NCBI GenBank assembly: GCA_030429865.1
Contig: JAUIFX010000023.1
Location: 1-34,258, forward strand
Source of the DNA: Gammaproteobacteria bacterium
GTDB taxonomy: Bacteria > Pseudomonadota > Gammaproteobacteria > Ga0077536
Reading direction: 5' to 3'
Length of the DNA stretch: 34,258 nucleotides
Shown: positions 5,331-34,029 of the stretch, one piece after another
How the letters are laid out: each line of letters begins with the position of its first letter
How positions within the stretch are numbered: position 1 is the first letter of the stretch
The notes under the pieces: generated by a model
Databases searched by the model: none
What the model saw: the letters and a program-made list of their open reading frames with translations, nothing else
What the model was told of the DNA's origin: nothing
Made by a program: the position numbers and the translations under genes

Positions 5331-6143
5331 TCAGTCTTCGTCGCTGCTGGCCGCCCGCGCCTCGCGCCGTTCGGCCTTGCGCCGGCGGCGCTGCCACCAG
5401 GTCTGGACGATGCCCGAGACGGCATAGGAGCCGAACATCACGAGCAGCACGCTGGCCGGTTCCAGCGAGATGAGCACGAACACCAGCACGACGGCGAGCA
5501 CGGTGACGAACGGCACGCGCCCGCGCAGGTCGAGATCCTTGAAACTGTAGTAGCGCACGTTACTGACCATCAGCAGGGCCGCGGCAACCGTGACCAGCAG
5601 GTTCGTACCGAGCAGCAGCAGGCCGTCCTCGAGTTCGAAATGATGTCCGACCCAGACCATGGCCGCGACCAGCGCGGCGGCCGACGGGCTGGGCAGACCC
5701 TGGAAATAGCGCTTGTCGGCATTGCCGACCTGGGTGTTGAACCGCGCCAGGCGCAGCGCGGCCCCCGCCGTGTAGACGAATGCCGCCAGCCAGCCGAGCT
5801 TGCCCAGCCCCTGCAGCGACCACTCGTAGACGACCAGCGCCGGCGCCAGGCCGAAGGAGACCATGTCGGCGAGACTGTCGTACTGGGCGCCAAAATCGCT
5901 CTGCGTGTTCGTCATGCGCGCGATGCGGCCATCCATGCCGTCGAGCACCATGGCGACGAAGATGGCCACGGCGGCCGCCTCGAAGCGATCGTTGATCGCC
6001 GCGACAATGCCGTAGAAGCCGGCGAACAGCGCGCCCGTCGTGAACAGGTTGGGCAACAGGTAGATGCCGGCGCGGCGGCGGGGGCTACTCACCGCGGCGG
6101 TCTTGCGCGGTTCGCCCCGCGTCTCGGAATGCACGACTCGCAT
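5331..6143 (-). CDS. pssA: CDP-diacylglycerol-serine O-phosphatidyltransferase PssA
   Basis: Integral membrane enzyme that makes phosphatidylserine from CDP-diacylglycerol and serine, the first committed step to phosphatidylethanolamine. The CDP-alcohol phosphotransferase signature D-G-x2-A-R-x8-G-x3-D-x3-D is complete (D71, G72, A75, R76, G85, D89, D93). About six to eight hydrophobic helices follow a basic N-terminus, and the tail is highly charged. The ATG at 6143 has AGGAGG 5-6 nt upstream, by far the best ribosome-binding site in the frame, giving 270 residues; the longer frame from 6224 is rejected. It lies directly downstream of the psd-like gene, as in the ilvBNC-psd-pssA arrangement of many beta- and some gammaproteobacteria. 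Confidence 0.94.
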
Positions 6144-6281
6144 GAACGCCTCCTCGCGCTTGAACGTGGTCACCGTGGCAGGTGGCGAAGCCACGTGCGC
6201 GGTTGATGCCGGAGCGACGGGCACCGCGGTCCGGCGTCCATCGGCGCCGGCCCGCTGCCGCGTCTCGTGCAGGGCTCGTCT

Positions 6282-6323: not shown

Positions 6324-7010
6324 TCAGCCGGCCTCCTCCGCCTGCTCGACCGCGCTCACCGGCTGCTCGTGGATGAGCGTCATCAGCACGCTGCAGGCGC
6401 CGACGACGCGGCTGCCGCTCTCCACCTCGATGCGCGTCGGCTGGCCGCAGTAGATGGTCAGCGTAGCGCCGAAGGGAATGAAACCGATGCGCCGGCCGTG
6501 GCCGATGCGCTCGCCCGGCTGGTAGGCGACGTGCAACGGGCCGCGCAGCGTGCCGCGCGCGATCTCGAGCACGACCTCGTCGCCCTCGTCGGTACGCACC
6601 AGGTAGGCGATGCGCGGTTCCGGCTGCGTCGGCCACGGCGACGGGTGCCGTGGCTGCGACCATTGCTCGACGATCTTGCCTTCGATGGGGCTGAACAGGC
6701 TGTGCACATCGAACAGCCCCATGCGCACCGTGACGCACTCCGCATCGCGGCCGCACCAGGGATCGAAGGTGGTGCCGGCCGCGATCACCTGGCCGTCGGC
6801 GGGCGCGACCAGCGCCAGCGGCAGCGACGGCGAGTCGCGGTGCGGATCGCGGTAGAACCACGCGACGCCGGCGACCGCGGGTACGCCGACGAGCAGCGCC
6901 AGCGTCCCGTACAGACCGACCGCCAGCGCCGCGAGAGCGATCGCGACGGCGAACACCGTGCGGCCCTCGGCCGCAATCGGTGGATGCTTGGTCGATGGAA
7001 CCCGTGGCAT
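6324..7010 (-). CDS. Phosphatidylserine decarboxylase-like membrane protein lacking the pyruvoyl-precursor Ser
   Basis: Homologue of the short, membrane-anchored phosphatidylserine decarboxylase proenzymes. Residues 9-16 (HPPIAAEG) and two hydrophobic helices (19-52) match the family N-terminus; RDPHRD (54-59), APADGQV with D72, and FDVHS with H103 keep two members of the Asp-His-Ser triad. The expected self-cleavage motif, usually FGSR, reads FGAT (G181-A182), so the Ser that becomes the pyruvoyl group is Ala. The usual Lys/NERN-like middle segment is also not recognisable (it is replaced by a Pro-rich stretch near 123-132). It therefore may not decarboxylate anything, although its place between ilvC and pssA is that of true psd. 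The ATG at 7010 gives 228 residues; longer frames lack support. Confidence 0.75.
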   Translation of the reverse strand: MPRVPSTKHPPIAAEGRTVFAVAIALAALAVGLYGTLALLVGVPAVAGVAWFYRDPHRDSPSLPLALVAPADGQVIAAGTTFDPWCGRDAECVTVRMGLFDVHSLFSPIEGKIVEQWSQPRHPSPWPTQPEPRIAYLVRTDEGDEVVLEIARGTLRGPLHVAYQPGERIGHGRRIGFIPFGATLTIYCGQPTRIEVESGSRVVGACSVLMTLIHEQPVSAVEQAEEAG

Positions 7011-7201: not shown

Positions 7202-8815
<1,614 letters not shown>

Positions 8816-32673: not shown

Positions 32674-34029
32674 ATGACGGCATCCCTGCGACTGGTGCTG
32701 GCCCAGGCCGACTTCTGCGTCGGCGACATCAGCGGCAACACGGCGCGCATCATCGACCTGGCGCGCACCGCGCGGGTCGAACACGGCGCCCACGCGGTCG
32801 TCTTCCCGGAACTCGCGGTGACCGGCTACCCGCCCGAGGACCTGCTCTTCCGCCCGGGACTGCATCGCCGCGTGCGCAGCGCCCTCGACGCCATCGCGGC
32901 GGCCGAGCCGGGCATCCACGTCGTGCTCGGCTACCCGGAGCGCGACGGCGCGAACACCTTCAACAGCGCCGCGGTGTTTCACGGCGGCCGCCAGGTCGCC
33001 AACTACCGCAAGCAGCGCCTGCCGAACTACTCGGTGTTCGACGAAAAGCGCTACTTCGAGCCCGGCACGGCGGCGACGATTATCGAGCTCGGCGGCGTGC
33101 GCGTCGGGTTGAGCATCTGCGAGGACATCTGGTCGCCGCAAACCGCGGTCCAAGCGGCCGCGGCCGGCGCCGAACTCATCTGTAACCTCAACGCCTCGCC
33201 CTACCACATGGGCAAGGCGGTGGAGCGCACCAATGCCGTCACGGAAGCGGCGCACGCGGCCGGCCTGCCGGTGGTCTACGTCAACACCGTCGGCGGGCAG
33301 GACGAGCTCATTTTCGATGGCGGCTCGTTCGCGCTCGACGCGCGCGGCGTGGTCACCGCGCTCGCAGCGAGCTTCGTCGAGGACCTGCTCGTGGTCGACG
33401 TCGACCGCGCCGCCGACGGACTCGTGCCGCGCGGTGCACTCGCGGCGACACCCGACGCCGACGCCGCGGTCTACCAGGCGCTGGTGCTCGGCATTCGCGA
33501 TTACGTGCGCAAGAACCGCTTCAAGGGCTGCGTGCTCGGCTTGTCCGGGGGCATCGACTCGGCGCTGACGCTGGCACTGGCGGTCGACGCGCTCGGCGCC
33601 GAGTGCGTCACGGCGGTGTCGATGCCGTCGCGCTATACCGCCGACATGAGCATCGACGACGCACGCGAGGAAGCCGCGCGGCTCGGCTGCGCCTTCCACG
33701 TGGTGCCGATCGAGGGACCGGTCAAGGCCTTCGGCGAGGTCCTGACACCGCTGCTCGGCGGCGATGCCGGCGGCGTGACCGCGCAGAACATCCAGGCGCG
33801 CAGCCGCGGCGTCATCCTCATGGCGCAATCGAACGCCACCGGCAATATCGTCATGGAAGACCTCGTCTTCCTGCTCGAAGGCGCCGGGCTGAAAACCGGC
33901 GTCGATATCGACAAGCTGGTCGCGATCCGCGAGATCATCGCGCGCAACCTGCCCGATGAAACGCTCTACGGCATGTATGCCCGCGCGGGTGCGCCCAAGG
34001 GCTTCGTGCCGGCCAGCGCCGCGGCCTGA
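32674..34029 (+). CDS. Chimera: glutamine-dependent NAD+ synthetase truncated and fused in frame to an HMG-CoA lyase-like C-terminus
   Basis: Residues 1 to ~387 are a NadE enzyme: a nitrilase-type glutaminase domain with E46 (FPELAVTGYP), K113 (NYRKQRLPNYSVFDEKRYF) and C149 (SICEDIW), then the ATP-pyrophosphatase P-loop GLSGGIDSALTLALA (289-303) and ENIQAR-like NIQARSRGVILMAQSN. The family would continue with LTTGNKSE and ~150 more residues; instead, from residue ~388 the frame reads ATGNIVMEDLVFLLEGAG, then KTGVDIDKL and an AGAPKGF tail. That fits the end of HMG-CoA lyase-type enzymes. NAD synthesis would need the missing part, so this product is probably not a working NadE. The protein has 451 residues against the usual ~540. 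The open frame is unbroken. Either a true fusion or a misassembly at a short shared sequence near ACCGGCAA. Confidence 0.85.
   Translation: MTASLRLVLAQADFCVGDISGNTARIIDLARTARVEHGAHAVVFPELAVTGYPPEDLLFRPGLHRRVRSALDAIAAAEPGIHVVLGYPERDGANTFNSAAVFHGGRQVANYRKQRLPNYSVFDEKRYFEPGTAATIIELGGVRVGLSICEDIWSPQTAVQAAAAGAELICNLNASPYHMGKAVERTNAVTEAAHAAGLPVVYVNTVGGQDELIFDGGSFALDARGVVTALAASFVEDLLVVDVDRAADGLVPRGALAATPDADAAVYQALVLGIRDYVRKNRFKGCVLGLSGGIDSALTLALAVDALGAECVTAVSMPSRYTADMSIDDAREEAARLGCAFHVVPIEGPVKAFGEVLTPLLGGDAGGVTAQNIQARSRGVILMAQSNATGNIVMEDLVFLLEGAGLKTGVDIDKLVAIREIIARNLPDETLYGMYARAGAPKGFVPASAAA
33835..34026 (+). other. HMG-CoA lyase-like C-terminal segment within the chimera
   Basis: The last ~64 codons. 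I recognise the pattern ATGN-x-x-x-EDLVF-x-L-E-x-x-G-x-x-TG-x-D, then DKL, LYG and AG-x-PKGF, as the C-terminus of hydroxymethylglutaryl-CoA lyases of the short-chain acyl-CoA catabolic type. The aldolase-like barrel that forms the active site is absent, so it cannot be a lyase by itself. What follows it (terminator, then an acyl-CoA dehydrogenase gene) suits that family's neighbourhood, whereas sucCD before the junction suits nadE. The exact breakpoint is uncertain by a few codons. Confidence 0.7.

Follow-up and report, generated by a model that had tools for sequence, protein, structure and literature searches.

An apparent pseudoenzyme of the phosphatidylserine decarboxylase family retained beside PssA in Gammaproteobacteria

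Most Gram-negative bacteria have phosphatidylethanolamine (PE) as their main phospholipid, and its synthesis takes two steps, the first by PssA and the second by phosphatidylserine decarboxylase (PSD). The window, by which we mean the whole stretch of 34,258 nucleotides analyzed here (contig JAUIFX010000023.1 of assembly GCA_030429865.1, Gammaproteobacteria bacterium), encodes on its minus strand (7010-6324) a PSD-like protein of 228 amino acids plus stop, hereafter called X. Pfam analysis of the neighboring genes agreed with the preliminary description of the locus in placing X between ilvC and pssA, with all three genes on the minus strand. The features of the gene and its product are collected in Table 1. 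The hydrophobic N-terminus extends to the relatives described below, as hydropathy exceeds 1.6 over 19 residues at the N-terminus of 96% of the degenerate copies.

Table 1. Position of X, its neighbors and the main features of its product in the window.
Feature	Position	Strand	Basis or remark
X gene, PSD-like pseudoenzyme	6324..7010	-	ATG start at 7010; the same Met opens relatives
ilvC, ketol-acid reductoisomerase	7202..8224	-	Pfam KARI_N + KARI_C
pssA, CDP-alcohol phosphatidyltransferase-type phosphatidylserine synthase	5331..6224	-	PF01066 (CDP-OH_P_transf) + NCBIfam TIGR00473, over cut-offs
N-terminal hydrophobic membrane-anchor region, residues 17-53	6852..6962	-	hydropathy
D72 (APADG), triad Asp equivalent to E. 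coli D90	6795..6797	-	alignment; D in 89% of degenerate copies
H103 (FDVH), equivalent of E. coli His-144	6702..6704	-	alignment; kept in window, lost in most relatives
E110-G-K...W117, within the degenerate conserved set	6660..6683	-	E110 in 99%
Pro-rich variable stretch, residues 118-136, replacing canonical K-A-S-x-x-NER	6603..6659	-	alignment
T-D141-E142-x-D144-D/E motif	6576..6593	-	D141 + E142 in 102/102 degenerate copies
GERIGHGRRIG, residues 166-176, conserved G-x-R-x-G-Q-G-x-R-x-G motif	6483..6515	-	alignment
F-G-A182-T, former cleavage/pyruvoyl site (canonical FGSR)	6462..6473	-	alignment

X belongs to the PSD family by homology, scoring 50 bits against PF02666 (cut-off 22), and falls under the cut-off of every NCBIfam PSD/AS_decarb equivalog model (183-377 bits), the best of them giving 93 bits against 262. 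Translation and alignment bore out what had been read from the sequence at the outset: the D72 and H103 regions of the proenzyme are kept, the cleavage motif is FGAT and not FGSR, with A182 encoded by GCT (6467-6465), and the central segment, K-A-S-x-x-NER in active PSDs, is missing from X and replaced by a Pro-rich stretch; the N-E pair of this segment is found in 20/20 canonical and 0/102 degenerate copies. In E. coli PSD, self-cleavage depends mainly on D90/D142-H144-S254 and takes place at a Gly-Ser pair (PMC7952604), so that X, which carries Ala there, would not be expected to mature in this way. Of the D-H-S triad, both Asp and His are present in the X of the window, from which the Gly-Ser cleavage site is absent; among the relatives, His is gone in most, and Ser is absent in 88 of the 102 degenerate copies. 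The possibility that close relatives carry Ser, with the Ala reflecting a sequencing error or a point change, was rejected, as a species of the same genus, 95% identical (L003/L008), also carries Ala. An AlphaFold2 model of X built from a five-row alignment gave no confident fold (pLDDT 40.8, pTM 0.27), and a profile search of PDB sequences returned no match at E 0.01.

A first search of relatives detected X in 11 of 58 genomes, and in the resulting 11-row alignment the former active-site positions vary and another set of residues is invariant. With this alignment as query, a match was obtained in 129 of 370 genomes of the class, and one copy per genome was read for 122 genomes, most of the loci being fetched. 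Canonical short copies, with D, H and S, account for 20 of the 122 and represent 11 family codes; the remaining 102, without the full D-H-S set and referred to here as degenerate, span 50 family codes and 72 genera, and no family code holds both kinds. The Ser column of the degenerate copies is occupied by G (26), A (26), R (24), S (14), C (5) and further residues including Q, and at the His column Tyr is the commonest residue (58%). D, H and S are found together in 0/102 of these copies, as are Ser and His; accordingly, His is kept in 0 of the 14 members with Ser, which are distant ones. Conservation of Ala thus holds between species of the genus but not across the wider family, where it is the loss of the D-H-S set that is conserved, not Ala itself.

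Other positions are under strong constraint in the degenerate copies. In addition to the residues listed in Table 1, R168, G166, G170 and G172 are present in 98-100% of them, and D144 in 94%. The TDExDD and GxRxGxG motifs are also found in sister copies that are still canonical, for example L041 and, partly, L066, which is consistent with a second role that may be older than the catalytic loss. Moreover, the dN/dS ratio of the window pair, counted from the Met, is 0.11, and in other pairs it is mostly 0.03-0.3; selection on X is purifying. X therefore combines homology to an enzyme, an incomplete catalytic set and purifying selection, which together define a pseudoenzyme.

A second canonical psd, the search for which the preliminary description had proposed as a check, was found in the same genome as one further PF02666 match on another contig (G000:C13). 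This long-type PSD matches PF02666 at E 1.1e-57, with its CPADG, YHRVH and NMGST motifs intact, and its presence means that X need not be the cell's source of PE. Taking as second PSD any PF02666 match with E below 1e-48 in the same 370 genomes, one more full-scoring PSD was found alongside the degenerate copy in 97 of 102 genomes, vs. 0 of the 20 genomes with a canonical copy, figures that do not represent 122 independent observations, because the degenerate copies amount to one event on the tree. The long PSDs fetched from X genomes have YHxxH and GST in 49/49 cases, and a simple PADG pattern in 47/49. With the own-genome long PSD as query, none was found in five X genomes, which are metagenome-assembled and fragmented (150-410 contigs); these genomes with X but no other PSD are G207, G227, G312, G248 and G113 (L063, L078, L077, L094 and L139), G227 and G312 being two species of one genus. 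Either gaps in the assemblies or the loss of this route to PE may explain them. In L137 and L138 (genomes G344 and G170), yet another PSD-like protein was noticed, which contains FWDVHVQRS and LLGST and differs from both X and the long PSD.

The origin of X was approached through a 141-row tree. Its 104 degenerate rows group in one clade with an SH-aLRT of 100, which is nested within the canonical copies of Gammaproteobacteria; when five long branches and the columns of the active site and the substrate segment are left out, the clade retains an SH-aLRT of 97. Convergent degeneration and long-branch grouping were both considered and rejected, given that the clade held after the active-site columns and the longest branches were dropped. 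Outgroup genomes from the wider phylum carry canonical short PSDs, mostly flanked by ilvC and pssA, indicating that this arrangement is ancestral. Just outside the degenerate clade, L057 (genome G377) has lost His and the NER segment and keeps FGSR and much of the LAGLxARRILCY segment; judging from these residues, it appears to be a natural intermediate between active and dead copies. Genome G377 also carries a full-scoring PSD elsewhere. Altogether, we consider it very probable that X is genuinely a pseudoenzyme of the PSD family, and an ancient one.

The order ilvC-X-pssA, on one strand, was observed in 95 of the 95 degenerate loci with both neighbors seen. X is gone, however, from many genomes that keep PssA, and a search of 20 genomes without X for undetected remnants found none; where both ilvC and pssA are in view in genomes without X, the gap between them is 4-452 bp in 15 of 16 genomes and 819 bp in one. 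On a PssA tree including the 20 genomes without X, approximately 10 changes in X presence were counted. In at least four genomes (G185, G217, G102 and G178) X lies away from pssA. In G217 (L222, 5293-5922), ilvC and X are followed by dedD/cvpA/purF-like genes, and pssA is on another contig. In G185 (L221, 5159-5782), the genes flanking X are prfC-like and proS-like, and ilvC and pssA are found on other contigs. As proS is also near the cluster in the window, the genes around X seem to have been removed in G185 while X stayed. The isolated X of G185 speaks against X as an operon passenger.

We then compared the evolution of X with that of its potential partners. Partial correlations of distance matrices, from 48 genomes with all four proteins, are 0.56 for X and PssA (5-95% range of subsamples, 0.40-0.66), 0.24 for X and the long PSD and -0.01 for X and ilvC. 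Without PSD, the 95 loci give 0.45 for X and PssA given ilvC, and 0.02 for X and ilvC given PssA. X thus covaries with PssA beyond both ilvC and the long PSD, which favors a link to PssA. Part of this co-variation could stem from joint transfer of adjacent genes, but ilvC, on the other side of X, shows none. No PssA residues convincingly tracking X presence were found, and this, together with the loss of X from many genomes with PssA, indicates that PssA does not generally require X. The survival of X apart from pssA in several genomes likewise counts against the link.

The preliminary description had offered, as one of two readings, a pseudoenzyme retained beside PssA, and this is the reading strengthened by the intact long PSD, the old clade, the purifying selection, the constant gene order and the co-variation with PssA. 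In the ancestral proteobacterial operon ilvC-psd-pssA, the short PSD would have been active. Decarboxylation would have been provided, in one gammaproteobacterial lineage, by a long E. coli-type PSD encoded elsewhere in the genome, after which the copy in the operon would have lost its NER segment together with the D-H-S set and been retained as a membrane-anchored, presumably unprocessed and non-catalytic protein. X would most likely bind PssA, or the phosphatidylserine (PS) made by it, and might tune PssA output or pass PS on to the long PSD. On balance, we lean slightly towards this account of X as an ancient pseudoenzyme acting as a membrane-anchored, non-catalytic partner of PssA or its product in the PS-to-PE branch. 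More tentatively, the short PSD may have had a PssA-directed second role before the catalytic loss, and this role alone may have kept X once the long PSD took over; X would then represent a class of bacterial pseudoenzymes controlling or channeling the flux from PS to PE.

It is also conceivable, if rather unlikely, that the pseudoenzyme partners the long-type PSD and not PssA, activating or stabilizing its active paralogue. There is a precedent in T. brucei, where a paralogue without catalytic activity activates AdoMetDC, likewise a pyruvoyl enzyme (PMC5201418), and both the long PSD in 97 of the 102 X genomes and its partial correlation with X agree with such a role. Nevertheless, X covaries with PssA at over twice this strength, in most of the sampled genomes the long PSD functions in the absence of X, and the five X genomes mentioned above show no long PSD, though their assemblies are fragmented. 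The Trypanosoma AdoMetDC prozyme resembles X in being a dead relative of a pyruvoyl-dependent decarboxylase that was kept in evolution (PMC5201418). The pathway and the protein family are, however, unrelated, and the partner of the prozyme is its own active paralogue, whereas for X the strongest co-variation is with PssA, the enzyme of the preceding step. Furthermore, the prozyme activates its enzyme, while X is known here from its sequence, its link to PssA being one of co-variation.

Less likely still, X could be a new enzyme, in which the fold is re-used for another reaction or ligand and E110, D141, E142, D144 and R168 form the new site. The near-invariant polar set, unlike the canonical one, would suit this explanation, but it may instead be structural or used for docking, some of its residues are already present in the still-canonical L041 and L066, and no cofactor motif was recognized in X. 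That X is a decaying relic, kept solely by its position in the operon, appears very improbable: its frequent loss would be expected of a relic, but the reading frames are open, dN/dS is low, near-invariant residues extend across 50 family codes, and X survives in G185 after both neighbors moved away. Finally, the decarboxylase with a new mechanism put forward in the preliminary description, in which X would still act on PS through a different nucleophile or cofactor, is hardly credible, since the fold family and D72 (89%) are kept but the putative catalytic positions change freely from one relative to the next, with a variable cleavage residue and mostly Tyr for His, the NER segment is gone and a second, intact PSD is present.

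Coming back to X as a probable pseudoenzyme beside PssA, one of its closest known counterparts is the short-type PSD/archaetidylserine decarboxylase (PF02666; NCBIfam PRK05305 series, TIGR00164), with which it shares homology over the whole length, the position in the operon, the N-terminal membrane anchor and the RDP and PADG landmarks; unlike it, X has neither the D-H-S set nor the NER segment, and its conserved set is a different one. The E. coli-type PSD, on which the residues compared here were defined, belongs to the same Pfam family as X, is active and cleaves itself at LGST (PMC7952604), and in the organism of the window is encoded by a gene separate from X. Neither an inactive bacterial PSD nor a PSD-PSS complex was found in our literature search, which covered few subscription journals, and no description of the X clade was found in the literature searched or among family models, an earlier description elsewhere being possible. 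That an ancient and apparently inactive PSD is widely encoded next to PssA suggests that the PE pathway has a component not yet described. In addition, the putatively active, intermediate and dead copies provide a traceable series for the change from enzyme to pseudoenzyme, and automatic annotation as PSD from PF02666 would be wrong for the X clade.

In the window itself, one further open reading frame deserves mention. The ORF at 32674-34029, near the contig end, starts as a glutamine-dependent NAD synthase (CN_hydrolase and NAD_synthase), the NAD_synthase match ends at profile position 125 of 242, and the last approximately 65 residues resemble, by eye, the C-terminus of HMG-CoA lyase, which is likely the result of a misjoined assembly.
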